Part shown: one piece after another, positions 28,284 through 46,949 of the stretch
Numbering within the stretch: the first letter of the stretch is position 1
How the letters are laid out: every line of letters begins with the position of its first letter
Assembly: GCF_009725985.1 (NCBI RefSeq)
Contig: NZ_RCNR01000026.1
Coordinates: forward strand, 1-64,000
Source of the DNA: Zobellia amurskyensis
GTDB lineage: Bacteria; Bacteroidota; Bacteroidia; Flavobacteriales; Flavobacteriaceae
Length of the DNA: 64,000 nucleotides
Direction: 5' to 3'
Translations under genes and position numbers: made by a program
The notes under the pieces: model-generated
Databases searched by the model: none
What the model was told of the DNA's origin: nothing
Seen by the model: only the letters and a program-made list of their open reading frames with translations

Positions 28284-28287
28284 ATGA
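28081..28287 (+). CDS. Possible 68-codon leader ORF overlapping the giant gene
   Basis: This frame opens with ATG and ends in TGA within the sequence ATGA, where the ATG is the start of the giant gene, the classic 4-base overlap of coupled genes. The peptide (MKQAKTNLWNDVFVISRSY at its start) has no signal sequence and no similarity I recognise. Codon use is C-rich, unlike neighbouring genes, so it may simply be leader sequence. Coding status is doubtful. Confidence 0.25.
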   Translation: MKQAKTNLWNDVFVISRSYRLPIILPPNNLSVIYNGRVFMLNFFPHQKETFLIFNHIINTKPALYIRV

Positions 28288-31200
28288 AAAAAATTACTCT
28301 TCTAACCGTATTGGTTCTTTTTACAACTTTTATTTTCGGACAAACGCCATGTTCGCCTATAAGTTCATTGAACTGCACAGAAATTGCATCCAGTTTACCT
28401 CTTCACCTTAGTTTTGACGCTACGGATGTGGGAATACTAAATTCAGGTTTTACTATGGTAGACCCGCCTTCATCAAGATTAAGTTCTGATGACTTAGGGG
28501 CAGACCCCAATGTGCCTGGGCTTTTAGTAGGTAATCTTTCTATTGTTGGAGGTAGGTTGAACGTTACGGCTACTAATGGGATAAATTACAGTCAACCTTC
28601 TGGATCCCCGCAAAGTACATTCACTAATTCGCAAATGAATGCGCTTGGGACTGGACTTTCCATAGGAAGTACTAAAGTGGAAATATCCGCAATTTTAGAT
28701 CAACCTAATTTTGCAGGAACGGCTGGCAGTAACTCACAACAAGCAGGTATATGGTTTGGGCTCAATGAAGATAATTTTGTAAAATTAGTAGTTGTTAAAT
28801 CATCCGCTACACAGCAAAAAGTGCAAATGGTTGTTGAACAAACCGATTCAGGAAATTCTTCTAATTTAATTTTAGAAGAGTTCAACACTGCTGTTTTTCC
28901 AACAAATGGGGTGAGCTCTATAAGTTTAAGATTAGAGGTGAATCCATTGGATAACTCAGTAAGAGGGTATTATAGTTTAGATGGGGGTATAGAGGTTCAG
29001 TTGGCGGGAGATTCAGATTTTTTAACAGTTCCCAGTTCATTTATTACTGGAGTTGACCACGATAATGATGGTATTACCCCAGCTTTAACTTATGCGGGAA
29101 TTATGACTTCTACGAGAAGGGCTACGGGAAGTACAATGGTCGTGTCATACGATGAATTTTCGGTAGATGAAGTAGTCTTACCTAATACAGAAACTGATAT
29201 TGTAAGTTTTGCTTTGTTAGAGGAAACGGGTTTGGCTGTTATTGATTCTGGTGATCATACAATAAATACAGAGGTGGGTGGCGCTTCTGATTTAACGAGC
29301 TTAGTCCCACAAATCTCATTTTCGCCAGGAGCAATTATAAATCCCGCTTCCGAAGAAACTACAGATTTCAGTAATGGTCCTATTACTTATACGGTTACCG
29401 CTGAAGATGGAGTTACAACTCAAGATTGGTTAGTAACGGTAGTTAAAGAAGAGTTTCCGTTTGAAGCGCATATCAACTTCCAGGATAACCCTGGTACTAC
29501 CATTCCTCCAGCGGGATATTTGGCCGATTACGGGAAAGCCTTTGGTAATGCTGCCGTGGACTTGAACGGGAATAGTTATAACTATGGTTGGAAACTGGCC
29601 TCTTCAGGTAATCCTTTTGATGCTTCGGATGAAGTTGCGGGCAACTCCACCGGGGTCGGACGTATGCGCCTTGGGAACATATCTAATTATAATGCAGCGT
29701 CACATCAAGAAAAATTAGAAGGGACCTTGGTTCATTTTCAGGGAGATAATATTGCTGGCTGGGGCGATGGTCAACCTCGAAAGAGCGAACTGTTTTGGGA
29801 AATAGAAATTCCCAATGGCGTTTATGAGATAACCATTGGCCTTGGAGATAAGGCTGCAGGAAATACGGATAGCCGGCACAGTGCTACTGTTGAAGGATAC
29901 TCTATTATTTCCGCGTTTGTTCCTGTTGAGCAAGAAGTACGTACTTCCACTATGGTGGTACAGGTATCCGATGGTTTGTTGACAATTGATGGAGTAGGAG
30001 GTTTTAATTCAAAAATCACACACATTGATGTTGTTGAAACTACGGCAAGTCCCGTAAATGGTTTATTGACCTTTACTCCAGCTACTGCGGACCAAACCAT
30101 AGAAGCGAGGGTAAATACAAGTTTTTTAACAGAGTTGGTCGGTTCAGGTGCTGTGAATATTGGTTTGATCATAGATGATAATATAGATGAGACGGGCAGT
30201 AATGATTGGCTTACGATTCCCGTGAAAACAGACTTGGGCGAATATCATTTTGATGTAAATGGGACATCTCTTGTAGAAAATGACACTCGTAGCAATACCA
30301 TTATTGCCACCGCAAAAGGCTTTGTTCCAGCTCAGTTGACTCTAAACCTAAATGTTGAGGCTAGCGAGCCTTCTACATTTGCTTTTTTAGATGATTTTGA
30401 TGCCTATGCTTTGGGTAACTTACATGAGGTGGCACCCACGCAATGGCTCAAGGAGAAGCCTGCCGATGTGGCCATACCGGTTTTAGGGGAAGGTATTACC
30501 CCAAACACCACCCAGTCCCTTGATTTTTCCAATGGGGCCCATACGCACGACTTGATACCTTTAACGGAAGCCCCGATAACCTTGGAGGCCGACCAGCCAT
30601 TTTATTTTAGTACCTATTTTAATGTGGGTAGCGTAAGCAACCGGGTCCGTACGGCTATTCTCATCGCGGATGATGTGCCCGGAGATCAATGGGTAAGGGA
30701 ACAGGTGGCCAGTGATGGCAGTAGTGGCCTTATAGCCCGAATTGGCTTGGGAGGCCCCGGTTCCGATAACGGAAATTTACCGGTAGATTCTGATAAGACC
30801 TTCCAGTTTGTGGTAAAAGGCGAATGGGATGGGGCCGGTACCATTAACTATTCTTGGACCATTGAACCTAAGCTCGATTTGGCCCAGACGGCATGGACCT
30901 CGGCAGGAAGCCATACAGTAGAGGGAACCCCCAAGATCGATCGCTTATTCATCAGTTCGGTGGGTACCAACGATGCTAAAATTGGAGGGATACGCCTCGC
31001 TTCGGATTATTCCGTAGTAGTGACCGAAGAATTTAATACAGCTCCCCTTATAGAAGATCAGGTATTCGCTATCGCGGAAGATGCTCCTGTGGGGACTTCC
31101 ATTGCCACCGTAGTGGCGTCCGATTCAGACCCTTTGACCTACGCGATTACCGCAGGTAACGATGATGAAACCTTTGCCATAGATCCCAACAATGGGGAAC

Positions 31201-34200
31201 TGACTACTTTACTTCCCTTAGATGCCGAAACCGTAGCACAATATGTACTTACGGTCGAGGTTGGTGATGGAACGAATACGGTTTCTGCGCAAATTACTAT
31301 AAATGTTGAAGACGTGGTGGAGGTAGAACCATGTAGCCCTTTAAGTTCCTTGCCTTGTAATCAGTTGGAAGTATCACTACCAGTATCGCTAGACTTTACG
31401 GTACCTAACGGAAGCCTTTCCGATACGGGCTTTCCAATGGTTTTAGCGCCAAGCTCTAGACTCTCTTCAGATGATACAATTGCTGATGTTGATGTTCCGG
31501 GGTATGCACAAAGTCTTTTAATCCAAGATGCTTCTGGATTATCAATAACAAGTACTAAAGGTATTTTTTACAGTCAGTTACCTGCTCAGGGCACACCAAG
31601 TAGTACGGAAACCAATTCACAAATGAACGCATTGGGCATTGGTTTGTCCGTGCCGTCAACTGTATTCAATTTATCCGCTACCCTAGAAAATCCGGATTTT
31701 TCCGTTAGTGCAGGAAATAATTCACAACAGGCGGGAATCTGGTATGGACTGGATGAGGATCACATCGTAAAATTAGTAGTCTCTAAAACAGGGAACACCA
31801 GTAGAAAGATTCAGTTGCATATAGAAAATATGGATCGTACTACTTCTGAAACGGCATACCTAGAATTGAATACAGGTAACATTACTTCAAATACAGGAGA
31901 TATTAATTTGCGTTTAGAGTTAGATCCTGTAAACAATACGGTTTCTGGGTATTATACGCTTGAAGGAGGAGTTGAAGTTTTAGTTTCTCAAGGAGGAACG
32001 GATGCTTTACCTGTTCCTGCAAGTTATTTTTCCGGTATAACATACGATAATGAAAACCCATCTGAAGTATTAAGTTTTGCTGGAATATTTACAACACATA
32101 GAAGGGCTGAAATTAATCAAAGCATTACAGTTTTGTTCAAGGACTTTGAAATAACTCAAGAAGAAGAGCCATTATCGATTCTGTTCAATGTTAATGAGCT
32201 GAATTTTATTGGAGAACAGAATTCAGATATCGCCACGCAGAGTGTTACTGTTTCTGCAAGCTCGGGTAATCCTACTTTTGTGCTTTCAGATGATCCTGAT
32301 TCGGATTCATGGTTAATTTTGCCTACGGAACAGGTATTGGGCGAAATAGAATTTGGAGTTCGTTCGGATATACCGGTAGGTTCTTATGGTACTACAATTT
32401 TTGCTAGCGACCAACCTGATTTGGGCTATGCCAATGCTGAAATGACAATCAATTTGGAAATTACCGAAACGATTAATGATTTTGCGGTAAACATTAATTT
32501 TTCAGATCAGGTTACGACCGCTCCGGTAGGTTATGAAAAAGATGGGGGTGATGCCTATGCAGACAGGGGCAACGGTTTTTCATATGGATGGTTGGACGCT
32601 ACTACGTCCCAGCCCGCCGATTTGACCAAAAATGGCAGAAACAGAGCCGTATCAGGGGTGAGTGAATTGAACAATACCCTGATACATATGCAATATGGGG
32701 ATGTGTCCTCCAATGCTTCCAATGGTTATTTAGCAGATGCCAAATGGGAAATTGAAGTACCGAACGGAGATTATTTGGTAACGGTTTTCGTAGGTGATCC
32801 CGATGTAGATACTCCCGCATCCAATACTCCAGCCCATAGGATAAATGCTGAAGGGGTAACTTTGGTAAACGACTATGTGCCTACAGGTACGGCCGGTGCA
32901 AGTTCCAGATTTACATCGGAAAGCACCATAGTAAGTGTTAGCGATAATAGACTTACCCTTGATCCATTAGGCGGGTCCGGTAAGAATACAAAAATCAATA
33001 GTGTGCAGATCGTGGCCACTTCCGTGGGTGTTCAGACCCCAAAGGTAGTCGGGATAACACCATCTGACGGGGCTACAGGAGTATCGGTGAGCAGTAGTGT
33101 TTCCGCCAATAACCTCTTACTTCCAAACTCCGATACCAATGGTAATGCGGGGGTGGATAATTCGACTATCACCAATACTACGGTACGTTTATTTAAACAG
33201 GGGAGCGCTACCCCTATAGGGGCCAGTGTTAATGGAACCGGTGGTGGCGATGCCATTAATTTGGTGCCGAACCTTCCATTGGAGGCCAATACCGTTTATG
33301 TCTTTGAAATTGATGGAGTGTTGGATTTGGTAGGGGAACCTTTCGAATTCTTTACTTCTTCATTTACTACAGGTGATGGAAATACCGGACCGGTTACCGA
33401 TTTGGACAACGTTTCATTTACCAATGTGGGCGTCGTGGGGTCAAATGGAAAATATTCGACCCTTACCATAGGACCTGATGACAAGTTGTACGGGTTGGAA
33501 ATCTCAGGGGATATTCACAGATGGAATATCGATACGGACGGAACCCTAACCGATGAGGAAGTATTTACGGCATGGACAACCGCTTATGGAGGAAGCCGTA
33601 CTTCCGTGGGGCTTGTTTTTGATCCTGCGGCTACCTCATCTAACTTAATCGCATACGTTTCCCATAATTCAGGAGGGTTAAATAGCGCTCCGGATTGGGA
33701 TGGGAAAGTATCCAGGCTAACTGGGGCCAACCTTGAAAATGAAGAATTGCTGGTGACCGATTTACCTCGGTCAACCAAAGATCACTTGACCAATAGTCTT
33801 ACGTTTAGACCCGGTGAGCCCAATGTAATCTATTTTAACCAAGGGAGTAATAGTGCCGCAGGGAAACCCGATAATTCTTGGGGCAATAGGGAAGAAAGTT
33901 TATTGACGGCCGCAACCCTAAGATTGGATCTTTCCCTTTTACCGGGTACGCTACCATTAAATGTACGGACAACAAGGGATGCCATGGCGATAAATAACGT
34001 GGATGTCAATTCCCCGACTTTGGATGGCTTGTACAATCCGTATTACGTAAATGCACCTTTAAAATTGTTTGCTACAGGTATTCGTAATGCCTACGATTTG
34101 GTATGGCATTCCAATGGGCAATTGTACGTGCCTACCAACGGTACCGCTGGCGGGAGTAACGCACCTGCGTCTATTGATGGCACAAGACGGCCCGATGGTT

Positions 34201-37200
34201 CGTTCTATGATCATAGCAACCCTTTGTACCCTAGTGTTCCTTTTTCGGATGGAAACAATGTACAACGTGATTGGTTGTTCAGAATAGACCCCAATACAAG
34301 CATTGGGTATTACGGACATCCAAATCCGTTCCGAGGTGAGTTTGTTCTAAACCGAGGAGATGCCGATGTTAGTAAAACTGCCTATGATGGTGTGCAACCT
34401 GATGAAAACTATAGGGGTGCTGCCTTTGATTTTGAATTGAACAAATCACCGAATGGTGTTATTGAATATCGAAGCAATGCTGAAAACGGTAACTTAAAAG
34501 GAGCTTTGTTGGTCGTTAGGTATAGTGGGGGGAGTGATATCATCGCCTTGGTCCCAGATGGGTCAGGAGGGGATATATCAACCTTTAAAGAGGGAATACC
34601 TGGATTTTCAGGTTTTCAGGACCCCCTAGACTTGGTAGAGGATACCACTAACGGAAATATATATGTATCGGACTATGGAAGAAGCCAAATTGTATTGCTG
34701 AAACCTAGCAATCAAGCCTCGCCTACGCCACTTATCGTATTGGATACGGAAAAGATAACAGGTGATGCTATTTCGAATTCAGGATCATTCACGAGCGAGA
34801 TTTTGCTGTCCAATTTAGGAAATGCCAGTTTGATGGATGTCCAGGCCCAAATTTTGGGGGCGGACCAAGATCAGTTTTCGATTGTCGGTTTGCCAACTTC
34901 GATAAATGCCCAGAATTCGGCCTCGTTTCAAGTGGTATTTACACCAACGTCGAACGGACCTAAATCGGCAGAATTGACCTTGACGGGCACCAATGCCGAA
35001 CCCGTAGTCGTGTCATTGAACGGTCTGGGTAAAACGGGACTGGGAGGAAATAATGAGCCTTCATTGCAGTGGATATTGGATACCCATTTGGGCGATGGCG
35101 CCGTAAATGTGGGAGATACCGATCCGACGACCAACCTTATCAATTTGCCGAATGGCAGCGGTTATAACGATATTTTAGGTGATGAGGTGGCCGTTCAAAA
35201 GTTTGAAAGGGCTGTTGATGCGCCGGTTACCGTAGAGTTATTGAGTGTGTACGGACCTACCAATACCACTCCGGTAGTGGCATTTGGATGGTATGTTAGT
35301 GGTGATACCAATACTACATCGGAATTGTTTACGGTTTCCAACAGTCCCGCTAGTAACGGACAGACACTTAACGCCCCAATCGTGGGGTCAACCGAATTTG
35401 ATCCAGGCGCGGTGAGTTTTGGTTTCTATAGTCGATGGCCATTTTTTGGTGACCGACATTTGTTTAGCGAAGATGCCCTCAATACATTCGCCGATGCCAT
35501 TCCGCATCATGTACGGGTATATGAGCTTCCTGGGGAAGAGAATGCCTATATTATCGCTACGGAGGAACATATTTCCGGGTTTGACTACCAAGATATTGTC
35601 GTCATTGTTAGAAATATTAAATCCTTTGACGATGCACCTACCTTAGCTTGTTCCCCTATTAGCATTTTTGAATGTGACGAGCTTGAAGTAAACTTGCCCT
35701 TTTCTTTGAATTTTGACGGAACCGAAGGTGGATTGGCCAATACAGGCTTTACCATGGTCGATAACCCTTCTGCAAGGCTTGCGGTAGATGGCCCAGTTTT
35801 CAATCCAAATGTTACAGGGTATGAACCCGGTAGGATAAGCTTGTCCAATGGCAATCTGGTTCTAAATGCCGCGAATGGTATCGCCTATTTGCGTAATGGT
35901 CCAGGTGCTGGAACGAGCACAGATGTAAATTCACAGATCAATACTTTGGGTGTAGCCGTCGATGCCGATAGTTACGGAAGTTTTAGTATAGAAACCTCCT
36001 TGGTAAATCCGTATAACGATGGCTCCAATAATTCGGAGCAGGCCGGAGTGTGGTTCGGTCTTGATGAGGATAACTATGTAAAGTTGGTGGCTTCAAATGG
36101 CAATAGGGTAGAATTACTGTCTGAAGTGGCTGGTCTTTCGGCAACCTCACAATCAATAAAAGCCGATAATATTACAGAGTTACATTCCAGTAACGTAGGT
36201 CTACGGTTATTCGTCGATATTGAAAACAGCCTCCTTGTTGGATATTACTCCTTGAACGGTGGAGCCGAAGTCGAAGTGGGTTCTTTGCCGCTGCCCTTGG
36301 GTTTTGTTGCCGGGAATTCTTCTTATGATGACTTATCTTTCGCGGGTATCTTCAATACAAAACGAAGGGAGGCCACGGCCATTGTAACTCATACTTTTGA
36401 ACATTTTAGGATAGTTTCCGATGATGTAGTGGCCTTTGAGCCGGTTAAAATCAATTTTTCGCTTCCTGAAGATGTACCGCCCTTAGGATACCTGGTAGAT
36501 TCCGGTTTGGCCTATGCCGATCGTGGCAACGGATACAACTATGGTTGGATGGCTACTGATGGAGTAACAGGTTTAGATCTGTCTGATAGAGTTCGCAATA
36601 GAGAGGTCGGTGGCGTTGATATTTTGCAGAATACCCTAGTACATATGCAGTATCAAAATGTAAAACCTGAAGGACAAGAGGGAATTTGGGAAATAGAAAT
36701 ACCCAACGGGAATTACACGGTTGCCGTAGGGGTAGGAGACCCCAATGTTGATGGTCAGGCGGGCACAGAACCTTTTCATACCATAAACGTTGAAGGTGTA
36801 AATGCGGTAAACCAGTATTCACCAACCGGTGCTGAAGGGGCGCCGACACGTTTCTCCTCGGGAGTTACGAACGTAACAGTTACTGATGGTAGGCTTACAA
36901 TAGACGCTTCCGGTGGTTTCAATACAAAGATTAACTCTTTGGAAATTAGCCAAGGTAGTGGTGCGGTTCAACCATTTTTTGCGAATGTTAATCCAGTAGA
37001 TAATGCAAATGATGTGAGAATCGAAGATTTTCAGATCAACGTTGAGGTTATCGTTCCTGACGATTATGAGATAGATAATAACACCCTTGCGGGCAATATC
37101 AATCTATTTGAAGTTACTGCGGGCGGAGATGTCTTGGTACCTTCCAATTCCAATGATACAGGAGGAGGAGACGCCATTACGCTCACTCCAATTCAAGATT

Positions 37201-40200
37201 TAAAGGAATTTACTACTTATCGCTTTGTTCTTACTAGTAACATAGAGGCAAACCGGAGGGGCGATTTAAATGATAGAATACCTTTCCGTGCTTTTGAGTC
37301 TACATTTGAAACGGGTGAACTCGATGATGGAACCACAACTATTCGAGATTTGACAGGAGTTGAATTTACCAAGGTTTCGGGTGTGGCCAATTTAGGCCCT
37401 GGTGTAGATAACCAGCGTTTTTCGAGTTTGGTAATCGGACCTGATGGTAAGTTATATGCCAGTACCATTGGCAACTTTAATTCAGATGGCCGAATTTATA
37501 GATGGGATATGGCCATTGATGGTACTTTGAGCAATTTGGAGATTTTAAGTCCACCCTTACAAGGCTCGCCCCATCCTGAAACTACTGTAGGGGGTAATGA
37601 TGATAGGTTGATTATTGGCCTGGCATTTGACCCTACATCTACAGCGGATAATCTTGTTGCCTACGTAACCCATAGTAAAGCCTCTATTTCGGGCGGACCG
37701 GAGTGGGATGGCAAACTATCGCGTTTGACCGGTCCGGATTTGTCTACGGTAGAAGATCTTGTTATCCATTTGCCTAGGTCGGTAAACGATCATTTAACCA
37801 ATAGCATTGCTTTTGATGCTCAAGGTGATTTATATATTAGTCAGGGCAGTAACTCGGCAGGTGGTAGTCCCGATGGTAATTGGGGCAATAGACCAGAACG
37901 CCTTTTGGCCGCAGCTATCTTAAAGTTGGAGTTGGACAAGTTGCCAAATGATCTACCATTAAGTGTTTATACTACGGATGATATTTCAGTAATTAACACG
38001 GCACCGAATGGTAGTCTGCTAATGAGTGATACGACTTATAATCCATATGCAACTAATTCACCGTTAACGGTCTTTGCTTCGGGTATTCGAAATGCTTATG
38101 ATCTGGTATGGCATTCCAATGGTTGGTTGTATGTGCCCACCAACGGAACCGCCGGTAACAATAACAGCTCGCCTAATTCGCCTTCAACTTCTGATTATCC
38201 GTTGGCAAGGCGTATCGATGGCTTGACCACAATTCCCAATGCCCCTAAATTATTAGGCGGGGAAACACAAAAAGATTGGTTGTTCAAGACCAAAGGAGGG
38301 TCGTATCATGGTCATCCCAATCCTTATAGGGGTGAGTTCATCTTGAATCACGGTGGTATTTCGTACAGTGGATTACCAGGCCAAGTAGAGGCTTCTTATA
38401 CTGATGTGGGCAAATACCCCAATGATTTGGCACCAGATCCAAATTATCGTGAGCCTGCATTTGATTTTGGAAAAAACAAATCGCCCAACGGGGCCATAGA
38501 ATATAAGAGTGATGCTTTTGAAGGAAAATTACAGGGCCTTCTTATGGTAGTCCGTTTTAGCGGACAGGACGACTTATTGGTATTGGACCCCAAATCAAGC
38601 GGGGATATTGCCGAAGCCTATAGTAGTATTCCAGGACTTAGTGGTTTTGATGACCCATTGGATGTGGTGGAAGACCCCACAACAGGGAATATCTATATTT
38701 CGGAATACGACCGCGACAATAACGGAACTGCTCGATTGACCCTGCTTAGGGCGGCTACCCCGGCAAGCATGGGGCCATCCATAGTGGCTACTCCCGATGA
38801 ACTTATTTTTGAAGCGACAACGAACAACGAAGGAAGCAACACTGATACAAAAACGGTAGAAGTAAATAATGACGGTAATGCCGTGCTGCATATTTCGAGT
38901 GCAAGCCTAACAGGTACTTTTGCAAGTCAATTCAGTGCTGTTCAACCCTCCGGATCCGTAACGCTAAACCCAGGGGAAAGTCAAATATATACGTTGACCT
39001 ATACGCCCGGTTTAGACGGAACGGACTTAGGTTATCAAGATGCTGTACTTACTTTAGAAAGTGATGATACGGATACCCCCAGTCTTGAAATAGGATTACA
39101 CGCCTTGAAAAAATCTGGTTTTGAAGGAGGTCAGGAACCTGCCTTGCAAGATGTTGTTGATGCTTTGGGAATCGGTATAACGGTAGGATGGACGTCCTTG
39201 TCCAGCTCCACGGATCCTACTCCTGTAGGTGATGAAGTAGAAGTGGAAAGATGGGTGAAGGTATCCGAGCAACCCGTTAAGGTTACTCCTGTTGGACGAT
39301 ATTCTCCAAGGGAAGAATTACCTTTCGGTTGGTATACCAATGATGGAGCTATTATAACCCATGAGGTAGGGGTGCTAGCAGATGATATAGAAAATGCACA
39401 AACCTTGTTTCCCCCAATTACTTCAGGTACTGATACCTTTGACCCACAAGGCGCGGTATTTGGATTTTATGTTGAATCGCAATCTTTCGGTAGGTTCAAT
39501 TATACCGAAGATGCAATTAACACAGGCGGAGTGGCCCATAGGGTTAGGATATATCCCGTAAATGATAGGGAAGGGAATGCCGTTGAAAATAGCTATCTCA
39601 TAGCTTTTGAAGATGCCTCCAATGGCGATTATCAAGATTATATGTTTATCATCGATAATGTAATTCCTTTCGAAAGTGGCGTTCTGGCCTTGGATTTTGA
39701 TAAAGAGGATATGAGTTTCTTTACTTCGATCAACCAAGAGAACGTGCCGCTACAATCGTTGACATTAAACGGTAACGGAGGGATTACCTCATCAGAAATA
39801 AACTTGCAAAGCACCGAAGAATGGGTCGTTCTTCCCGATACCTTTGAAATGGGTGCGGCATTTGAAGTAGGTGTAGATGTTTCAGGTTTGTCTATTGGGT
39901 CTTATGTGGCTACAGTGAGTGCTATCGCACCAAATTACACCGAAGCTTTTGTGAATATTGCATTAGAAATCACAAACGAACTGGTTTATACCTATCAGTT
40001 CAATTTTCAAGACCCGGATGAATTGGAGGTGTCCCCAGAGGGGTATATTGATGATGTGGGTGCACCTTATGGCGTAAAAAATACCGTTCTCGGAGACCTT
40101 AACTATGGATGGGTAGTGCCAGGTACGCTTACCCCGGCCGATGCCGCCACCAATGCAAGGAATAGAAATACGGGTACGAACGATGATGCCTTGATAAAAA

Positions 40201-43200
40201 CCTTTTCCATTGTAGGCCATAGGTCGACCAATACTTATCCGCTTCGCGATTGGATAGTAGAGGTGCCTAATGGAATATATTCAGTGAATATTGGTGTTGC
40301 CGGTGATCCTGATTTTGCGGATAGCAACCATGTCTTAGATGTAAACGGGGTTGTTGTGGTCGATTATAATCAAGCAAGTATCGTTCCCGAGAATTTTGAT
40401 AGTTTCCAAAATACCAAGCAGGTAGAGGTAACCGATGGTTTGCTGCGATTGTCTTTGGCTCCCGCCGGAGATAACGCCAAAGTGAGCTATATTCGATTGG
40501 CTCCTGTTGATAGCTCCTTGTTGCCGCCAACTATTTTGGCGACATTCAATGGAAATGAAAGAGCTCCCGATGTGTTTAGGGGAGCGGTAAATATAGCTCT
40601 AGAGGCTACCGATGAAAGCGGAAGTGGAGGAATAGCCTTTATAGAATATGTGCTTGACGGGGCACCGGTTGAAAGCTATGCCGACGCGTTCGATATAGCC
40701 GACGAAGGAGACCATACCCTTGTCGTTACGGCCGAGGATAACAATGGTAATAGTTTAGCCAAGACGTATAACTTTACTATAGAAACCCCAACGGGTGCAT
40801 TGTTGGCCATAGAAAATATGACCAAGGTACCAGGTACCGATAGAGGTTTTCCGGCAGATGATTATTATACTTTTTATCGCTTGGGCAGTCCGGGCTCCGC
40901 TCAATTTCATGATATAAATGTTATGCGTTTGAATAATACGGGTGCGGGTGATTTAGTCGTGACCGAGGTCAATATATCCGACGCTAACGACTATACTTTT
41001 GAATTACTCGATTTGAACGGGAACACGGCACAATTGCCTATAACGATTCCGTCAGGAAGCTATGCCGATGTAGACATCACATTTATCGCGACCACGGGAA
41101 GTGGCAACAATGGTATTTTTGTAGAAGATATTGAAATTGTTTCCAATGCGGACAATGCGTTGAATAACAAGGCTGTGCTTCACGGTGGGTATGCGCCACA
41201 ACCAGAGGGAGGGGATGAGATCCATGCACAGGAAGTTTTCGATGCCTTTGGTTTTCAATCTAGTATGTTGAGCATTGTTAACGATGAGGGAAGCATTACC
41301 CCGCCCAATAACCTTGCCTACAGACCAAGTTCCAATTTTCCTATTGAGGTAAATATTGAGGCTGGATATGAAGGTGATTTGATTTTGAGCGATGCCTTTG
41401 TTCAGGCAGATCCAAATCAACCGGTTATCGGTATTCAATTATCGGCCTTGCACGGTACGGGTTCAAACGGAGCTAGATTTGTAGAGGTCGGTGGTACGGA
41501 AACCGTTGGTGGAATCAGTTTTTCCCATACTGGAAGCAACTACCAGACCTTATTGCCTAAGAATAGTTCGGGAGTGATCAATTTTGATACAAGTAATTCG
41601 ATTTCCGAGCCTTTTAGAATTGCGGTTGCCAATTACCTAACGACCGGAGGAAACAATATTTCAGGAAATAGACCTGACCTGTTGGGGGCTAGGGTTTACA
41701 AAGTAATCGACCACAACGGCAATGTTGTTCCTAACGAGTATATCGTATTGCAAGATTTTGTTCAGGGTGGTTGCGGTGCGGGATCGGCAAATTGTGATTG
41801 GAACGATAATACTTTTTATTTCATAAACATCCGTCCTCAGGCCGTACCGACGGCGCAGCCCGACCAAGAGTACTTGGCCAATGTAGGGGAGGCGTTCAGT
41901 ATAGATGTCGCCTCGTATTTTGATAAAGGATATGCGGGTAATATGTTGACCGTAACAGCTACGGTAAACGGGGCAAGCCTTCCGGCTTGGATGACCTATG
42001 ATGCTCAGGCCGCTACGGTTTCGGGTACAGCCCCCATAGATGCTACAGGTAGTTTGCCGGTAGTGTTAAGTGCTGTAGACCTCAATGGTCTTATGGCTAC
42101 CACAACTTTGACGGTCGCTATTAACGAAGCTCCGCTTGCCATGGGTGATGATATAGAAACGACTCAAGATACGGCCATTCTTTTGGAAGGCTTGTTGGCG
42201 AACGATTCGGAACCTAATGGTCAGGTCATTACGATTGTTACCGTAGATACACCTCAAAATGGTGAAGCAGAGCTACAAGTTGGTGGCACTTCTATTTTGT
42301 ATACACCAAACTCTGGCTATGTCGGTTCCGATAGTTTTGAGTACACGATTGAAGATGAGACGGGACTTTCGGCTACGGCAACGGTTTCCATAACCGTTAC
42401 CCCTCAGAATCAAGCTCCGGTAGCCATGCTTCAAAGCAGTGTACAGGAAGGGGAAGCTGCCTTGTATGTTGAGTTTGTGGGGAGTGGGTCGACCGATGAA
42501 AATCCGGCTACGTTACGATACGAGTGGAATTTTGGAGATGGAACGGCAAATAGTACCGATCCCGATACGAGCCACACCTTTACCTCGGTTGGTGTTTACA
42601 CAGTCGTCCTTACCGTTATAGATGATGGGAATTTAATAGGAACGGCATCGACGACGATTACGGTTTCGGCACCACCTAATACAGGGCCGACCGCTGTTGC
42701 CGCAGTCACGCCATTGAACGGGGCCAATTCCCTATCGTTTAATTTTGACGGTAGTGCATCGAACGATCCCGAAGGATCGCTCAGCTATCTCTGGGATTTT
42801 GGGGATGGAAATACGGCTACTACGGCCATTGTAAACCATTCCTATGCCTTAGCAGGTATTTATGATGTCTCCTTGACGGTTACCGATGAAGGTGATTTAA
42901 TAGATGCGGTTACGGTACAGGTAGAGGCCAAAGAGGCTGTAGTGTCCGACTTTGCCTTGAGGATTAACGTAGGTGGCCCAGAGCTTGTTTACCAAGGGGA
43001 AACCTTTGTACAGGATCAAGGCTTCGTTGGCGGTAAGGTATTTGAAAATGCCAATGCATTGGTGCCTGAGTTATACCAGACGGAGCGTAGTGCTACCCCA
43101 CCTGTATTTGACTATAACCTTCCCTTGGAGAATGGCACCTATGAGGTAACCCTGCACTTTGCCGAAATTTATTGGGGAGCCACAGGTGGTGGAGCTGGAG

Positions 43201-46200
43201 GTGTTGGTAAACGTGTTTTTGATGTTTCCTTAGAAGAAAATGAAGTGCTAACTGATTTTGATATAACCCTTGTGTCAGGTCCGGAAACCCCAGTGGTAAG
43301 AGCGTTCGAGGTCATAGTGCAAGACGGTATTTTAAATATGCATTTTGATGCAGGTGGTGCCAATGGTGTTGACCAACCCAAACTATCGGGTATTGAGATA
43401 GTAAGTAAAGATGATCCGGTTATTCCTTGTGCATTGCCTGATGCTTGGACCAATAACGACATAGGCTCGGTTCAAATAGCGGGAGAAACCTGTTTTGAGA
43501 ATGGTAGATACGAGGTCAGTGCTTCAGGTGCCGACATTTGGGGCAGTGCCGATGAGTTTCATTACGTATACAGAGAGTTGACCGGTGATGGTGAAATCGT
43601 TGCGCAAGTAATGAGTTTGGGGGCGACAAGTGTCTGGGCCAAAGCAGGTGTCATGATGAGAAATGATCTGGAGGCCAATTCGGTTTTGGCCCAAATGATT
43701 CTCTCGCCAAACCCTAACAGCTTAGGAGGGGTAGGACATAGCTTCCAAGATCGTCCTGTAAAGGGTGCTGCAATGGGTAGTGCCAACTTTACAACGCCAC
43801 AATCGGTTCCGGGAGGCTTCCCCCACTATGTGAGATTGGTGCGATCGGGGAATACCTTTACCGGATATGTTTCCGAAACGAATGGAAATTGGACTCTTGT
43901 TGGATCTAAGGTGCTACCTATGAACGAAACTATTTTTGTAGGTCTAGCTACTACTTCCCATAACGATGATCAGCTTACGGATGCAGCGTTCGAGAATGTA
44001 AGTGTTCAAGAAGAAACACAACAGAATGAGGTTCCGGAAGCAGCCATAGTAACAAATATCTCTACAGGCACGGCTCCGTTGGTAGTTAGCTTTAACGGAA
44101 ATGGTTCTAGTGATGATAAAAATATTGTAAGTTATACTTGGAACTTTGGGGATGGAACGGCAAATGGTGCAGGAGCCCTTGTCGAACATACGTTTACCAA
44201 TACAGGGAGTTTTGATGTTACCCTTACCGTTGCCGATGAGGAAGGTGAAGTTGGTGTGGATGTGGTGACTATTGTCGTTGAAGCAGCGAACGAGGCACCC
44301 GAGGCCGTGGCTACGGCTACTCCCTTAAATGGAGAAGCTCCTTTGGAGGTGAGTTTTACAGGAAGTAATTCAACTGATGACGATGGTGCGGAAAACCTAA
44401 ATTTCGCATGGTCGTTCGGAAACGGTGATACTTCATCGCTGGCCGATCCAGTTTATGTTTACAACACTGAAGGAACGTATACCGTAAGCTTAACGGTGAC
44501 GGATTCAGAAGGACTTGCCGATCAGGAAACCCTGACCATGGTGGTCAAAGAGCCGGTGGTAGTAGGTGATTTTGCCTTGCGAATCAATGCGGGAGGGCCG
44601 CAATTGACCCATAACGGACAGGTGTACGTGGCAGACCGTGATTTTGTGGGAGGTAAATCTTATACGAATAGCAGTGCCGAGGTACCTGAATTGTATAAAA
44701 CAGAACGCAGCGCATTACCTCCTAATTTTGGCTATGACATTCCATTGGCAAACGGTGAATATCAAATTACGTTACATTTTGCCGAAATTTTTTGGAATGC
44801 TACAGGAGGAAGGTCTGGCGGAGTAGGAAGACGCGTGTTTGATGTGGTCATGGAAGGAAATACCATTTTGGACGATTACGATATCTTCGATGAAGTAGGA
44901 ACCGAAACCGTGGTGACCCGAACGTTTGACGTAACCCTTGTCGACGGCGTGCTAAACCTTGGTTTTGATGCCAATGCACCGGATGGGCGAAACGAGCCCA
45001 AGTTGTCGGCCATTGAGATTGTTAGTGTAGGTGTCGTCAACGAAGCGCCGGTCGCTTTTGCCAGTGCAACGCCTTTAAATGGTGTAGCCCCGCTAGAAGT
45101 TAACTTTAACGGTAGCGGTTCGATTGATGATGTGGAAGTGGTCTCCTATACATGGGACTTTAAAGATGGCGGTAACTCAAATCAAATGAATCCGGTCCAT
45201 ACTTTTGTTACACCAGGTGAATACAACGTTAGTTTAATGGTAACGGATGCCCAAGGCGAAACGAATACAGATAATGTAACTGTTATTGTGGAAGAGCCCA
45301 TAATAAATGATTTCGTGTTGAGAATTAATGCGGGTGGTCCGCAATTGACCCACAATGGAGAGGTTTACGTTGCTGATGACAATTTCGTCGGAGGTAAGTC
45401 GTATACAAATGCAAGTGCTAATGTACCCCAGTTATATAAAACGGAACGTAGTGCTAATCCACCTATTTTTGCTTATGAAATTCCGGTTCCGGATGGTGAA
45501 TATCAGGTGGTGCTTCATTTTGCTGAAATTTTCTGGAATGCAGAAGGGGGAATTCCTGGAACGGTAGGAAGACGTGTTTTTGACGTACAGATGGAAGGTC
45601 TTACGGTACTTGATGACCTTGATATAATTGCAGAAGTAGGTTCGGAAACCGTAGTGCTGAAGAATCTTAATACCACAGTAAATGATGGTATGTTGAATTT
45701 AGTATTTGATGCCCAAGGTAGTGATGGTAAAAATGAACCGAAATTATCGGCCATTGAGATTATAGGTAACGGTTCCATAGTTCAGATTGACCCTGTAGTT
45801 AACGCCGGTGAAGATGTCGAAGTTGATTTGATCGACAATGAAATCAGCTTGGTAGGAAGTGGGTATGATCCAGACGGCGGGGCCGTAAGTTATCAATGGT
45901 CACAAGTTTCTGGGCCGGATACTGCAATTATGACAAATAGTAATACTCCGGAATTGAACGCCATATTTTTGGTTGACGGAGTGTATGTATTGCGATTAAC
46001 GGTAACGGATGATGAAGGAGATGCTACTTTCGATGAGGTTCAGGTTACCGTTAATAGCGGGGCTAAAGAAGAAGTGTGGTTAGAGGCGGAATGTGCCATA
46101 GTAGGCGCTGGCTGGACCGTGGTAGATGATTCATCAACATCGGGAGGTCAATATGTCTTGCCTCCGGCAGGCTTCAATTCTTCGTCCTCTAATATAGGGC

Positions 46201-46889
46201 AAGCCATAGTTACTTTTAACTTCTCGGTAGCAGCCGGTTCTTATACCATTTTCGGACTTGTTAAAACACCGAGTGGTGTAAATGATAGCTTCTGGGTACG
46301 GGTAAACAATGGCTCATGGGTAAGATGGAACAGTATTCCCGCAAGTAACGAGTTTGCATGGCACAGAATACACCTTAATGAGCAAGTAAATAGCCCACGA
46401 AGTTTTGATTTTATAGAAGGAGTTAACAAAATTGAGATTGGGCATAGGGAAGATGGTGCAGGTCTGGATAAGTTATATCTAACGAAAACAGGTGGTGTAC
46501 CTAGTGACCTTGGCGGTTCGGCTACAAATTGTGGAGGAAGCGGTAAAACTATTAATGAGGTATTTATTACCGATAATTTACAACCAGAGGCTATTGCAGA
46601 TGCTGTATTTTACAGTGAAAAAGTTTCGAATGAAGTAGATTTATATCCTAATCCCGCAATAGTGGAAACAAGGATTAGACTTCAGAATCCTGAAGTTGAA
46701 ATAACACTGGTTTATCTACACGATGTTTCTGGTCGTCTTTTAGGAGTTTATGAAGGACAAGAGTTGAAAACAGGTGATGGAGAATATTTACTTAATGTCT
46801 CTAACCTTACGAACGGCATGTATTTACTTCGTATAGGTATTAGCGATGGAGATATTTTTGATAGGAAATTAATTGTTGATCATCGGTAG
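28284..46889 (+). CDS. Giant T9SS-secreted multidomain carbohydrate-binding/propeller protein
   Basis: 6201 residues, about 650 kDa. Order seen: signal peptide 1-19; lectin-like module A1 (23-300); DUF5018-like (305-389); malectin-like B1 (393-586); BACON-like; LamG-like (699-912); cadherin (919-1012); A2 (1017-1296); BACON-like; B2 (1400-1584); SbsA-type Ig; sorbosone-dehydrogenase-type propeller 1 (1712-2141); choice-of-anchor D; DUF4114-like C1 (2256-2452); A3 (2456-2716); B3; Ig; propeller 2 (3027-3493); anchor D; C2 (3614-3800); BACON-like; B4 (3900-4077); Ig; anchor D; C3 (4311-4519); He_PIG and cadherin-like; PKD x2; malectin 1; DUF1349-like; PKD x2; malectin 2; PKD; malectin 3; K319-like; CBM6-like (5927-6074); type A T9SS domain (about 6115-6201, DLYPNPA). 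Domain names are by eye. Probably a surface polysaccharide-binding or -oxidising protein; true function unknown. Monocistronic, ending at a strong terminator. Confidence 0.9.
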   Translation: MKKITLLTVLVLFTTFIFGQTPCSPISSLNCTEIASSLPLHLSFDATDVGILNSGFTMVDPPSSRLSSDDLGADPNVPGLLVGNLSIVGGRLNVTATNGINYSQPSGSPQSTFTNSQMNALGTGLSIGSTKVEISAILDQPNFAGTAGSNSQQAGIWFGLNEDNFVKLVVVKSSATQQKVQMVVEQTDSGNSSNLILEEFNTAVFPTNGVSSISLRLEVNPLDNSVRGYYSLDGGIEVQLAGDSDFLTVPSSFITGVDHDNDGITPALTYAGIMTSTRRATGSTMVVSYDEFSVDEVVLPNTETDIVSFALLEETGLAVIDSGDHTINTEVGGASDLTSLVPQISFSPGAIINPASEETTDFSNGPITYTVTAEDGVTTQDWLVTVVKEEFPFEAHINFQDNPGTTIPPAGYLADYGKAFGNAAVDLNGNSYNYGWKLASSGNPFDASDEVAGNSTGVGRMRLGNISNYNAASHQEKLEGTLVHFQGDNIAGWGDGQPRKSELFWEIEIPNGVYEITIGLGDKAAGNTDSRHSATVEGYSIISAFVPVEQEVRTSTMVVQVSDGLLTIDGVGGFNSKITHIDVVETTASPVNGLLTFTPATADQTIEARVNTSFLTELVGSGAVNIGLIIDDNIDETGSNDWLTIPVKTDLGEYHFDVNGTSLVENDTRSNTIIATAKGFVPAQLTLNLNVEASEPSTFAFLDDFDAYALGNLHEVAPTQWLKEKPADVAIPVLGEGITPNTTQSLDFSNGAHTHDLIPLTEAPITLEADQPFYFSTYFNVGSVSNRVRTAILIADDVPGDQWVREQVASDGSSGLIARIGLGGPGSDNGNLPVDSDKTFQFVVKGEWDGAGTINYSWTIEPKLDLAQTAWTSAGSHTVEGTPKIDRLFISSVGTNDAKIGGIRLASDYSVVVTEEFNTAPLIEDQVFAIAEDAPVGTSIATVVASDSDPLTYAITAGNDDETFAIDPNNGELTTLLPLDAETVAQYVLTVEVGDGTNTVSAQITINVEDVVEVEPCSPLSSLPCNQLEVSLPVSLDFTVPNGSLSDTGFPMVLAPSSRLSSDDTIADVDVPGYAQSLLIQDASGLSITSTKGIFYSQLPAQGTPSSTETNSQMNALGIGLSVPSTVFNLSATLENPDFSVSAGNNSQQAGIWYGLDEDHIVKLVVSKTGNTSRKIQLHIENMDRTTSETAYLELNTGNITSNTGDINLRLELDPVNNTVSGYYTLEGGVEVLVSQGGTDALPVPASYFSGITYDNENPSEVLSFAGIFTTHRRAEINQSITVLFKDFEITQEEEPLSILFNVNELNFIGEQNSDIATQSVTVSASSGNPTFVLSDDPDSDSWLILPTEQVLGEIEFGVRSDIPVGSYGTTIFASDQPDLGYANAEMTINLEITETINDFAVNINFSDQVTTAPVGYEKDGGDAYADRGNGFSYGWLDATTSQPADLTKNGRNRAVSGVSELNNTLIHMQYGDVSSNASNGYLADAKWEIEVPNGDYLVTVFVGDPDVDTPASNTPAHRINAEGVTLVNDYVPTGTAGASSRFTSESTIVSVSDNRLTLDPLGGSGKNTKINSVQIVATSVGVQTPKVVGITPSDGATGVSVSSSVSANNLLLPNSDTNGNAGVDNSTITNTTVRLFKQGSATPIGASVNGTGGGDAINLVPNLPLEANTVYVFEIDGVLDLVGEPFEFFTSSFTTGDGNTGPVTDLDNVSFTNVGVVGSNGKYSTLTIGPDDKLYGLEISGDIHRWNIDTDGTLTDEEVFTAWTTAYGGSRTSVGLVFDPAATSSNLIAYVSHNSGGLNSAPDWDGKVSRLTGANLENEELLVTDLPRSTKDHLTNSLTFRPGEPNVIYFNQGSNSAAGKPDNSWGNREESLLTAATLRLDLSLLPGTLPLNVRTTRDAMAINNVDVNSPTLDGLYNPYYVNAPLKLFATGIRNAYDLVWHSNGQLYVPTNGTAGGSNAPASIDGTRRPDGSFYDHSNPLYPSVPFSDGNNVQRDWLFRIDPNTSIGYYGHPNPFRGEFVLNRGDADVSKTAYDGVQPDENYRGAAFDFELNKSPNGVIEYRSNAENGNLKGALLVVRYSGGSDIIALVPDGSGGDISTFKEGIPGFSGFQDPLDLVEDTTNGNIYVSDYGRSQIVLLKPSNQASPTPLIVLDTEKITGDAISNSGSFTSEILLSNLGNASLMDVQAQILGADQDQFSIVGLPTSINAQNSASFQVVFTPTSNGPKSAELTLTGTNAEPVVVSLNGLGKTGLGGNNEPSLQWILDTHLGDGAVNVGDTDPTTNLINLPNGSGYNDILGDEVAVQKFERAVDAPVTVELLSVYGPTNTTPVVAFGWYVSGDTNTTSELFTVSNSPASNGQTLNAPIVGSTEFDPGAVSFGFYSRWPFFGDRHLFSEDALNTFADAIPHHVRVYELPGEENAYIIATEEHISGFDYQDIVVIVRNIKSFDDAPTLACSPISIFECDELEVNLPFSLNFDGTEGGLANTGFTMVDNPSARLAVDGPVFNPNVTGYEPGRISLSNGNLVLNAANGIAYLRNGPGAGTSTDVNSQINTLGVAVDADSYGSFSIETSLVNPYNDGSNNSEQAGVWFGLDEDNYVKLVASNGNRVELLSEVAGLSATSQSIKADNITELHSSNVGLRLFVDIENSLLVGYYSLNGGAEVEVGSLPLPLGFVAGNSSYDDLSFAGIFNTKRREATAIVTHTFEHFRIVSDDVVAFEPVKINFSLPEDVPPLGYLVDSGLAYADRGNGYNYGWMATDGVTGLDLSDRVRNREVGGVDILQNTLVHMQYQNVKPEGQEGIWEIEIPNGNYTVAVGVGDPNVDGQAGTEPFHTINVEGVNAVNQYSPTGAEGAPTRFSSGVTNVTVTDGRLTIDASGGFNTKINSLEISQGSGAVQPFFANVNPVDNANDVRIEDFQINVEVIVPDDYEIDNNTLAGNINLFEVTAGGDVLVPSNSNDTGGGDAITLTPIQDLKEFTTYRFVLTSNIEANRRGDLNDRIPFRAFESTFETGELDDGTTTIRDLTGVEFTKVSGVANLGPGVDNQRFSSLVIGPDGKLYASTIGNFNSDGRIYRWDMAIDGTLSNLEILSPPLQGSPHPETTVGGNDDRLIIGLAFDPTSTADNLVAYVTHSKASISGGPEWDGKLSRLTGPDLSTVEDLVIHLPRSVNDHLTNSIAFDAQGDLYISQGSNSAGGSPDGNWGNRPERLLAAAILKLELDKLPNDLPLSVYTTDDISVINTAPNGSLLMSDTTYNPYATNSPLTVFASGIRNAYDLVWHSNGWLYVPTNGTAGNNNSSPNSPSTSDYPLARRIDGLTTIPNAPKLLGGETQKDWLFKTKGGSYHGHPNPYRGEFILNHGGISYSGLPGQVEASYTDVGKYPNDLAPDPNYREPAFDFGKNKSPNGAIEYKSDAFEGKLQGLLMVVRFSGQDDLLVLDPKSSGDIAEAYSSIPGLSGFDDPLDVVEDPTTGNIYISEYDRDNNGTARLTLLRAATPASMGPSIVATPDELIFEATTNNEGSNTDTKTVEVNNDGNAVLHISSASLTGTFASQFSAVQPSGSVTLNPGESQIYTLTYTPGLDGTDLGYQDAVLTLESDDTDTPSLEIGLHALKKSGFEGGQEPALQDVVDALGIGITVGWTSLSSSTDPTPVGDEVEVERWVKVSEQPVKVTPVGRYSPREELPFGWYTNDGAIITHEVGVLADDIENAQTLFPPITSGTDTFDPQGAVFGFYVESQSFGRFNYTEDAINTGGVAHRVRIYPVNDREGNAVENSYLIAFEDASNGDYQDYMFIIDNVIPFESGVLALDFDKEDMSFFTSINQENVPLQSLTLNGNGGITSSEINLQSTEEWVVLPDTFEMGAAFEVGVDVSGLSIGSYVATVSAIAPNYTEAFVNIALEITNELVYTYQFNFQDPDELEVSPEGYIDDVGAPYGVKNTVLGDLNYGWVVPGTLTPADAATNARNRNTGTNDDALIKTFSIVGHRSTNTYPLRDWIVEVPNGIYSVNIGVAGDPDFADSNHVLDVNGVVVVDYNQASIVPENFDSFQNTKQVEVTDGLLRLSLAPAGDNAKVSYIRLAPVDSSLLPPTILATFNGNERAPDVFRGAVNIALEATDESGSGGIAFIEYVLDGAPVESYADAFDIADEGDHTLVVTAEDNNGNSLAKTYNFTIETPTGALLAIENMTKVPGTDRGFPADDYYTFYRLGSPGSAQFHDINVMRLNNTGAGDLVVTEVNISDANDYTFELLDLNGNTAQLPITIPSGSYADVDITFIATTGSGNNGIFVEDIEIVSNADNALNNKAVLHGGYAPQPEGGDEIHAQEVFDAFGFQSSMLSIVNDEGSITPPNNLAYRPSSNFPIEVNIEAGYEGDLILSDAFVQADPNQPVIGIQLSALHGTGSNGARFVEVGGTETVGGISFSHTGSNYQTLLPKNSSGVINFDTSNSISEPFRIAVANYLTTGGNNISGNRPDLLGARVYKVIDHNGNVVPNEYIVLQDFVQGGCGAGSANCDWNDNTFYFINIRPQAVPTAQPDQEYLANVGEAFSIDVASYFDKGYAGNMLTVTATVNGASLPAWMTYDAQAATVSGTAPIDATGSLPVVLSAVDLNGLMATTTLTVAINEAPLAMGDDIETTQDTAILLEGLLANDSEPNGQVITIVTVDTPQNGEAELQVGGTSILYTPNSGYVGSDSFEYTIEDETGLSATATVSITVTPQNQAPVAMLQSSVQEGEAALYVEFVGSGSTDENPATLRYEWNFGDGTANSTDPDTSHTFTSVGVYTVVLTVIDDGNLIGTASTTITVSAPPNTGPTAVAAVTPLNGANSLSFNFDGSASNDPEGSLSYLWDFGDGNTATTAIVNHSYALAGIYDVSLTVTDEGDLIDAVTVQVEAKEAVVSDFALRINVGGPELVYQGETFVQDQGFVGGKVFENANALVPELYQTERSATPPVFDYNLPLENGTYEVTLHFAEIYWGATGGGAGGVGKRVFDVSLEENEVLTDFDITLVSGPETPVVRAFEVIVQDGILNMHFDAGGANGVDQPKLSGIEIVSKDDPVIPCALPDAWTNNDIGSVQIAGETCFENGRYEVSASGADIWGSADEFHYVYRELTGDGEIVAQVMSLGATSVWAKAGVMMRNDLEANSVLAQMILSPNPNSLGGVGHSFQDRPVKGAAMGSANFTTPQSVPGGFPHYVRLVRSGNTFTGYVSETNGNWTLVGSKVLPMNETIFVGLATTSHNDDQLTDAAFENVSVQEETQQNEVPEAAIVTNISTGTAPLVVSFNGNGSSDDKNIVSYTWNFGDGTANGAGALVEHTFTNTGSFDVTLTVADEEGEVGVDVVTIVVEAANEAPEAVATATPLNGEAPLEVSFTGSNSTDDDGAENLNFAWSFGNGDTSSLADPVYVYNTEGTYTVSLTVTDSEGLADQETLTMVVKEPVVVGDFALRINAGGPQLTHNGQVYVADRDFVGGKSYTNSSAEVPELYKTERSALPPNFGYDIPLANGEYQITLHFAEIFWNATGGRSGGVGRRVFDVVMEGNTILDDYDIFDEVGTETVVTRTFDVTLVDGVLNLGFDANAPDGRNEPKLSAIEIVSVGVVNEAPVAFASATPLNGVAPLEVNFNGSGSIDDVEVVSYTWDFKDGGNSNQMNPVHTFVTPGEYNVSLMVTDAQGETNTDNVTVIVEEPIINDFVLRINAGGPQLTHNGEVYVADDNFVGGKSYTNASANVPQLYKTERSANPPIFAYEIPVPDGEYQVVLHFAEIFWNAEGGIPGTVGRRVFDVQMEGLTVLDDLDIIAEVGSETVVLKNLNTTVNDGMLNLVFDAQGSDGKNEPKLSAIEIIGNGSIVQIDPVVNAGEDVEVDLIDNEISLVGSGYDPDGGAVSYQWSQVSGPDTAIMTNSNTPELNAIFLVDGVYVLRLTVTDDEGDATFDEVQVTVNSGAKEEVWLEAECAIVGAGWTVVDDSSTSGGQYVLPPAGFNSSSSNIGQAIVTFNFSVAAGSYTIFGLVKTPSGVNDSFWVRVNNGSWVRWNSIPASNEFAWHRIHLNEQVNSPRSFDFIEGVNKIEIGHREDGAGLDKLYLTKTGGVPSDLGGSATNCGGSGKTINEVFITDNLQPEAIADAVFYSEKVSNEVDLYPNPAIVETRIRLQNPEVEITLVYLHDVSGRLLGVYEGQELKTGDGEYLLNVSNLTNGMYLLRIGISDGDIFDRKLIVDHR
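31332..35648 (+). repeat. Tandem super-module, copy 1 (A2-B2-Ig-propeller 1-anchor D-C1)
   Basis: Codes for residues 1017-2455 of the giant protein. The domain order is repeated in the next 4 kb. Shared markers include the opening CSPxS...C...LPxSLxF and TGFxMVxxPSxRL, the YADRGNGxxYGW motif, DHLTNS, RNAYDLVWHSNG, YVPTNGTAG and GHPNPxRGEF, in the same order and similar spacing. Nucleotide identity is patchy, so the duplication is not recent. Confidence 0.8.
35649..39680 (+). repeat. Tandem super-module, copy 2 (A3-B3-Ig-propeller 2-anchor D-C2)
   Basis: Codes for residues 2456-3800. It starts directly where copy 1 ends and repeats its order, except that the BACON-like domain between A and B is missing. 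A short shared stretch, GGTATGGCATTCCAATGG, occurs at 34100 and 38104, showing residual DNA identity. A partial third block (BACON-B4-Ig-anchor D-C3, without A module or propeller) follows. Confidence 0.8.
42948..43410 (+). repeat. Malectin domain 1 of the giant protein
   Basis: Residues about 4889-5043. Contains the malectin features RINVGGPE, the Tyr-rich TERSATPP segment, YEVTLHFAEIYW and GKRVFDV. Malectin domains bind glucose-containing oligosaccharides through exposed aromatic residues. It is more divergent than copies 2 and 3 and is followed by a DUF1349-like domain. Confidence 0.8.
44568..45026 (+). repeat. Malectin domain 2 of the giant protein
   Basis: Residues about 5429-5581. Very similar to malectin 3, including RINAGGPQLTHNGxVYVAD, VGGKSYTN, YQxxLHFAEIFWNA and GRRVFDV. 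It is flanked by PKD domains on both sides. Confidence 0.85.
45309..45770 (+). repeat. Malectin domain 3 of the giant protein
   Basis: Residues about 5676-5829, 741 bases after copy 2, with strong similarity at DNA and protein level. The repeating unit is therefore one PKD plus one malectin domain. It precedes the K319-like and CBM6-like domains. Confidence 0.85.
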
Positions 46890-46917
46890 ATGAGAGCGAG
46901 TCCAGCCTAGTCTAATT

Positions 46918-46949
46918 AAAAAGGGAGCAATTAAATTGCTCCCTTTTTT
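46918..46949. terminator. Bidirectional terminator between the giant gene and ablB
   Basis: AAAAAGGGAGCAAT and ATTGCTCCCTTTTT form a 14-bp hairpin with a 3-base loop, with A and T runs on opposite sides. It ends the giant gene (plus) and can also end the proC-proB-proA-ablB unit (minus). Confidence 0.92.

Follow-up and report, generated by a model that had tools for sequence, protein, structure and literature searches.

The window analysed here, a 64,000-nucleotide stretch of DNA from Zobellia amurskyensis, contains a giant gene whose T9SS-type product is rich in folds that bind glycans and carries two sugar-dehydrogenase-type propellers, as an initial annotation proposed and as Pfam, NCBIfam and fold matches bear out. 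Twelve of 78 loci with homologues of the giant also have wza and wzc, genes of exopolysaccharide export; this linkage is new here and suggests that the target is polysaccharide made by the cell itself, so that the giant may help to order the coat and not serve in feeding. We give an even chance to the reading that the giant is an accessory T9SS type A surface protein, a multivalent scaffold to which exopolysaccharide made by the cell itself would bind; this reading is the best supported, ranking ahead of an algal adhesin and then of a dominant enzyme role. We infer surface display, sugar binding, the identity of the polymer and any chemistry along the following lines. Its sorting domain would hold the giant in place once it had crossed the outer membrane; the many lectin-like, malectin-like and malectin domains would bind the polysaccharide that is secreted and order it around the cell, with the PKD, Ig and cadherin domains as spacers; and the two propellers would bind, and possibly modify, the polymer's sugar residues in a conserved pocket. 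To our knowledge, very large bacterial proteins have seldom been assigned a function. No description of the giant or its class was met among the matches listed from the open-licence PMC literature, and the accessible portion of a paper on Zobellia and macroalgae (PMC9296495) does not contain the words malectin, PKD, cadherin or exopolysaccharide.

The frame opens with ATG and, as had been claimed, runs for 6201 codons without an internal stop; the predicted protein has a computed mass of 658.6 kDa and a pI of 4.1. The first 20 codons probably encode a signal peptide, classical-looking when the translation is read by eye. The type A sorting domain previously assigned to the C-terminus is matched above cut-off by both PF18962 (42.5 bits, cut-off 27) and TIGR04183 (33.5 bits, cut-off 23), and CHU_C, the type B C-terminal domain (CTD), gave no Pfam match in the giant at E values up to 0.01. 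An assembly artefact, named beforehand as a possible refutation, is ruled out by intact frames in independent assemblies, including that of G035, a 5.5-Mb genome in one contig; in three congeners the frame has 6202-6204 codons. The GC content is 44.4% in the gene versus 40.1% across the window. Upstream of the gene, sigma-70-like sites were not more numerous than expected by chance, and the flavobacterial promoter pattern had no match there (5 in the window versus 4 expected).

Pfam, run on thirds of the protein, and NCBIfam were used to name the domains (Table 1). Above the Pfam cut-offs were Cadherin, the first copy of Big_5, Malectin in three stretches (PF11721, 298.2 bits summed), PKD in six stretches, Big_9 and He_PIG. 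GH43_C2 scored 26.4 bits summed over the lectin-like repeats (cut-off 22.7) and 18.6 bits for the first repeat alone. The malectin-like domains had no clear Pfam family; by structure, copy 4 matched the N-terminal domain of YxiM (2o14, Z 14.4) and plant malectin-like receptors (Z 11-12). Thus, of the domains listed in the initial annotation, the cadherin, PKD, malectin and sorting domains were recovered by Pfam, the DUF4114 label held only as a sub-threshold match of one copy (11.5 bits, cut-off 27), and the CBM6-like label near the C-terminus was unsupported, with no CBM_6 match and a best match to GH115_C of 12.7 bits (cut-off 24.1). An internal repeat is a feature absent from that annotation. 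Segment BLAST identified a repeated unit, present in two copies, of ConA-like, malectin-like, Big_5, propeller, anchor-D and DUF4114-like domains, followed by a partial third unit lacking ConA, Big_5 and propeller and then by PKD/malectin repeats. Identities between copies were 38-46% for ConA domains 1, 3 and 4, 47% for the propellers and 25-52% for the malectin-like domains; the segment labelled ConA2 had no good match to the other ConA copies. The grappling-hook protein GhpA gave a single low structural match (Z 7.7, rmsd 11.3) and was not among the sequence matches at E 0.1, and comparison of unit 3 with viral predicted structures gave low-TM matches.

Table 1. Features of the giant gene and its cassette, in window positions.
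Feature	Position	Strand	Evidence
Cassette: leader, gene and terminator-like repeat, ~19.3 kb	27726..46988	+	Absent from three congener loci
Whole gene, 6201 aa	28284..46889	+	ORF and translation
Probable signal peptide, first 20 codons	28284..28343	+	Read by eye
ConA/LamG-like domain 1	28350..29183	+	Weak GH43_C2; 46% identity to ConA3
Malectin-like domain 1	29466..30053	+	Similarity to copies 2-4; fold tested on copy 4
Segment labelled ConA2	30384..31034	+	Kept in relatives; Pfam matches none
Cadherin domain	31062..31307	+	PF00028, 58 bits
ConA-like domain 3	31332..32168	+	Segment BLAST
Malectin-like domain 2	32481..33026	+	Segment BLAST
Big_5 domain a	33036..33371	+	PF13205 27.9 bits, cut-off 23.6
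Propeller 1, sugar-dehydrogenase fold, His1834/Arg1934/Asn1935	33384..34712	+	AlphaFold2 and VIA-align, Z up to 31.9
Choice-of-anchor-D / ASH-like Ig domain 1	34722..35018	+	Matches below cut-off
DUF4114-like domain a	35040..35483	+	35% identity to copy b
ConA-like domain 4	35649..36383	+	Segment BLAST
Malectin-like domain 3	36438..36953	+	52% identity to copy 2
Big_5 domain b	36966..37283	+	19.4 bits, below cut-off 23.6
Propeller 2, His3170/Arg3269/Asn3270	37338..38723	+	GSDH 26.4 bits, cut-off 25
Choice-of-anchor-D-like domain 2	38769..39080	+	NF012200 43 bits, cut-off 45
DUF4114-like domain b	39132..39563	+	11.5 bits, cut-off 27
Malectin-like domain 4	39990..40508	+	Z 14.4 to YxiM 2o14
OmpL47-type domain	40584..40781	+	NF047446 37.3 bits, cut-off 40
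Anchor-D copy 3 and DUF4114-like domain c	40794..41831	+	Separate gene in five relatives' loci
He_PIG and Big_9 domains	41859..42395	+	Pfam
PKD 1-2	42405..42947	+	PF18911; edges from sequence
Malectin A	42948..43403	+	PF11721; edges from sequence
DUF1349-like domain	43425..44015	+	27.2 bits, cut-off 32.4
PKD 3-4	44025..44567	+	Pfam; edges from sequence
Malectin B	44568..45011	+	PF11721
PKD 5	45039..45287	+	Pfam
Malectin C	45309..45773	+	PF11721; edges from sequence
PKD 6	45804..46052	+	PF22352/PF18911
Module near C-terminus, no family above cut-off (earlier CBM6-like)	46068..46553	+	
T9SS type A sorting domain	46641..46877	+	PF18962, TIGR04183
Terminator-like inverted repeat	46913..46953	+	Repeat search

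Propeller 1 was covered by an AlphaFold2 model of aa 1390-2410 built with 43 sequences (mean pLDDT 86.5, pTM 0.71). By VIA-align its nearest structures were PQQ sugar dehydrogenases and AA12 pyranose dehydrogenase (sGDH, Asd and AA12; 1cq1, 2g8s and 6jt5), at Z 26-32 with a maximum of 31.9. The propeller of HHIP (7pgm), an animal signalling protein unlike the giant, has the same fold and scored Z 24.4. Scanned on its own, propeller 2 passes the Pfam GSDH family (PF07995; 26.4 bits, cut-off 25), and propeller 1 on its own does not. Searched against PDB sequences at E values up to 10, a profile of 22 propellers matched only three sGDH entries, the best at 1.2e-5, with a conserved Asp-His aligned with the KDH of sGDH. 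In the accessible parts of two papers, His144 of sGDH is given as the likely base, and Arg228 and Asn229 lie beside the PQQ ketones (PMC6881810, PMC6881789); their equivalents are His1834, Arg1934 and Asn1935 in propeller 1 and His3170, Arg3269 and Asn3270 in propeller 2. These three residues are invariant in 110/110 aligned propellers, a set to which the window contributes two and several loci contribute multiple copies. Residues other than Arg occupy the equivalents of the PQQ-binding Arg406 and Arg408 in a local profile alignment of moderate quality (probability 62%, E 7e-5) to seven GSDH sequences, obtained from 7/9 GSDH loci; the global alignment of propellers with GSDH had a probability of 3.5% over 51 columns, leaving only the local one usable. 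The stretch around DPLD has no Arg in either window propeller. As far as the accessible text of the source goes, Arg408 of sGDH binds PQQ, and AA12 has one Arg in common with the bacterial enzymes, the Arg408-type one replaced, and no equivalent of Lys377 (PMC6881789), a position at which the propeller profile alignment is unreliable.

PqqE scored 63.9 bits in the genome, below the cut-off of 381, and all 14 control genomes were also below it, so that this search lacks a positive control; the result is compatible with PQQ that may be supplied by import. An electron-acceptor domain was not found among the Pfam and NCBIfam family matches of the giant. We conclude that the propellers probably have an enzyme-like pocket with an altered cofactor site. 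The initial annotation's suggestion that the protein perhaps oxidises polysaccharide is thus half supported: the invariant His and Arg-Asn speak for it, and the PQQ-binding Arg pair missing from both window copies speaks against it. Any oxidation by the giant's propellers is putative. Within the sugar-dehydrogenase fold, the propellers appear to form a subgroup whose catalytic core is intact and whose cofactor site is altered, and they may accordingly offer novel chemistry or a new way of binding polysaccharide.

Relatives of propeller 1 were collected by scanning genome contigs, and the best 80 of 245 stretches correspond to 78 distinct loci, many of which have very long frames. The giant is kept in scattered relatives. 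Among 19 joined relatives, 15 have frames closed by stops, with 4078-7355 codons from stop to stop and a sorting-type motif at the end; of the other four, two break off in runs of N and two reach the contig edge. Of the joined sequences, L010 has 32 unknown residues and L026 is without a clear start. Intact homologues occur in Flavobacteriaceae, Cyclobacteriaceae and Saprospiria. With a threshold of E 1e-60, propeller relatives were present in 17/397 genomes of a family sample and in 6/395 of a phylum sample, the latter too few for a retest of linkage. The core tree (FastTree only, 36 rows, with 7 others omitted as short or distant) has Cyclobacteriaceae and Lewinellaceae each as one clade, and the Flavobacteriaceae row Robertkochia is without a firm place. 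Propeller identity to Cyclobacterium is 75-78%, versus 59-60% for MutS. A recent transfer between Flavobacteriaceae and Cyclobacteriaceae was rejected, the tree keeping Cyclobacteriaceae and Lewinellaceae as clades and being compatible with a single Flavobacteriaceae origin; any such transfer would at most be old.

To examine the surroundings of the homologues, 11 loci with shorter homologues were read by eye, and export genes were nearby in five (L041, L047, L048, L050, L057) and not in the other six. By Pfam, L041 and L057 each have wza (Poly_export), and L057 also has a wzc-like protein. Small wza and wzc HMMs built from the five loci were then run over L001-L100. Among the 78 loci from the best 80 of 245 stretches, wza and wzc were found together in 12, distributed over six genera: one Algoriphagus, four Neolewinella/Lewinella, one Paraflavisolibacter, four Mucilaginibacter, one Segetibacter and one Cnuella. 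Five of the 12 are the HMM seeds and match by construction; the other 66 loci, several of them incomplete, lack the pair. The expected number of wza genes in the 1.49 Mb of the loci is 0.99 (from 104 in 155.9 Mb of 30 genomes), giving a Poisson probability of 8e-10 for 12/78, a figure that ignores relatedness and takes its density from genomes with long homologues only. We therefore place the weight on the six genera instead, and, the linked loci being in few genera, the 12 are not independent.

Proximity was also scored in the 30 genomes with long homologues. The giant is within 10 kb of wza in six (G015, G022, G023, G024, G026, G028), and in G025 a smaller homologue, not the giant, is within that distance. 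No wza lies within 10 kb of the giant in 24/30, including all flavobacterial and all Cyclobacterium genomes, with some giants at contig ends; in 23/30 neither giant nor smaller homologue is within 10 kb. As a control, mutS was within 10 kb of wza in 0/28 by the same hand comparison. Separately, the mutS matches have one in-frame stop in 5/30 genomes (G004, G011, G015, G016, G027). In Algoriphagus chordae the order is wza-wzc-kdsB-wza-wzc-giant, all co-directional (kdsB named by eye), and in Neolewinella antarctica a 1247-aa homologue lies among wza, wzc and glycosyltransferase-like genes, the last named by eye. Cu-binding MopE motifs occur in a Neolewinella homologue (L113:9707-13447) that lies in a run of exopolysaccharide genes.

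The modules that the giants hold in one chain are divided among genes in some relatives. The propeller and the anchor-D/DUF4114 modules are separate neighbouring genes in five loci (L041, L051, L052, L057, L074), and intermediates with both modules in one shorter chain occur in six (L041, L046, L050, L060, L065, L070). A T9SS tail is present on the anchor-D proteins tested (L041, L051, L057), and the five short propeller proteins tested have no T9SS tail in Pfam. The contrast of fused with separate genes, together with the repeated proximity to wza and wzc, makes a role in building the bacterium's own coat testable.

The window gene itself has no wza nearby, both wza genes of the genome being on other contigs. 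One of these two loci, on contig C21 (L108:3638-16627), comprises Polysacc_synt_2, a DegT aminotransferase, wza and wzc and ends in a co-directional 2123-aa protein (L108:3638-10006). This protein (2122 residues scanned) resembles the giant in having a GSDH propeller, two malectins, PKD and a type A T9SS tail. It differs from the giant in its single, strong GSDH propeller (123.8 bits), its CBM6 and FG-GAP domains and its place in an exopolysaccharide locus. The architecture differs, and the company is again exopolysaccharide genes.

Of nine Zobellia genomes, counting the one that holds the window, four carry the giant, which spans 6202-6210 codons; three others lack it and encode a standalone propeller protein (583-601 codons), and two have no propeller match. 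At three congener sites without the giant the flanking genes adjoin, 286-293 bases apart. At the two of these that have the GNAT gene, homology to the window ends at 27702-27725 and restarts at 46989; at the third (L131), which lacks GNAT, the left homology ends near 27585 and restarts only in a proA-like gene. From this break and resumption, the leader, gene and terminator-like repeat form one unit, and from its absence at the same site in three congeners that unit is a one-gene accessory cassette. A search for a mobile-element boundary found no repeats of 20 bases or more flanking the cassette. The GNAT gene beside the cassette (46987-47829) was not found at 2/4 congener sites (L131, L135), so that variation at this site extends beyond the giant gene. 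A clean presence/absence site within one genus is a basis for natural and engineered comparisons.

The scaffold reading is weakest in that neither the window gene nor any flavobacterial copy compared lies near export genes. Malectin and PKD domains are also found in enzymes that degrade food polysaccharide, which counts against it as well. That lack of linkage to wza in the window and in flavobacterial relatives favours instead an adhesin that recognises foreign surfaces, algal or other; its glycan-binding domains would attach the cell to the polysaccharide of seaweed or prey, and its propellers would be binding platforms only. The abundance of glycan-binding folds fits an adhesin too, as does the habitat of the giant-bearing genera, which we take to be largely marine; and HHIP was solved with heparin bound, so that a propeller of this fold can bind polysaccharide. 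We nonetheless hold an adhesin to be rather unlikely, because shorter homologues in other genera sit beside exopolysaccharide export genes and the pocket residues are invariant across phyla, beyond the needs of a plain platform. That invariance, the propeller 1 fold and a profile matching sGDH alone among PDB sequences argue for an active enzyme, with two propellers that would oxidise or otherwise modify polysaccharide in a pocket related to that of PQQ sugar dehydrogenases. Against this stand the missing Arg406/Arg408 equivalents in both window copies, PqqE below cut-off in a search without a positive control, and the lack of an electron-acceptor domain among family matches, and we think an enzyme a little less likely again than an adhesin.

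A gliding-motility adhesin like SprB of Flavobacterium johnsoniae is very improbable. SprB is likewise a giant T9SS protein of similar mass (669 kDa) but, in the accessible text of the source, is highly repetitive with a type B CTD bound to SprF (PMC9143113), whereas the giant has mixed domains and a type A CTD. Further, no cognate PorP/SprF gene is adjacent to the giant, the one at 22328 adjoining and following a CHU_C protein. To return to the scaffold reading, the Vibrio matrix proteins RbmA, RbmC and Bap1 resemble the giant in proposed role only, that of organising the cell's own exopolysaccharide, as far as the accessible part of the source describes them (PMC4108314). A bolder extension, which we consider improbable, more so than the enzyme, is a family of polysaccharide-editing scaffolds at the cell surface. 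The giant would capture exopolysaccharide at the Wza pore, and its paired propellers would modify or cross-link it through the His/Arg/Asn pocket without the usual use of PQQ; the family would exist as separate proteins in some relatives, as fusions of 4000-7000 residues in others and as a one-gene accessory cassette in the window's genus.

Elsewhere in the window, Pfam named no polysaccharide-degradation gene among 20 other ORFs (those before 12842 and small overlapping ones excluded), in agreement with the initial annotation; the nearest Pfam-named neighbours of the giant are the DUF218 and GNAT genes. A T9SS type B set at 18639-25258 consists of a CHU_C protein (Calx-beta, DUF11), PorP/SprF and an OmpA-type protein. 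An 87-bp tandem repeat of 1.9 copies (58476-58640) lies within a DUF5723/OmpA gene, and two tRNA genes are on the minus strand at 51338-51569.
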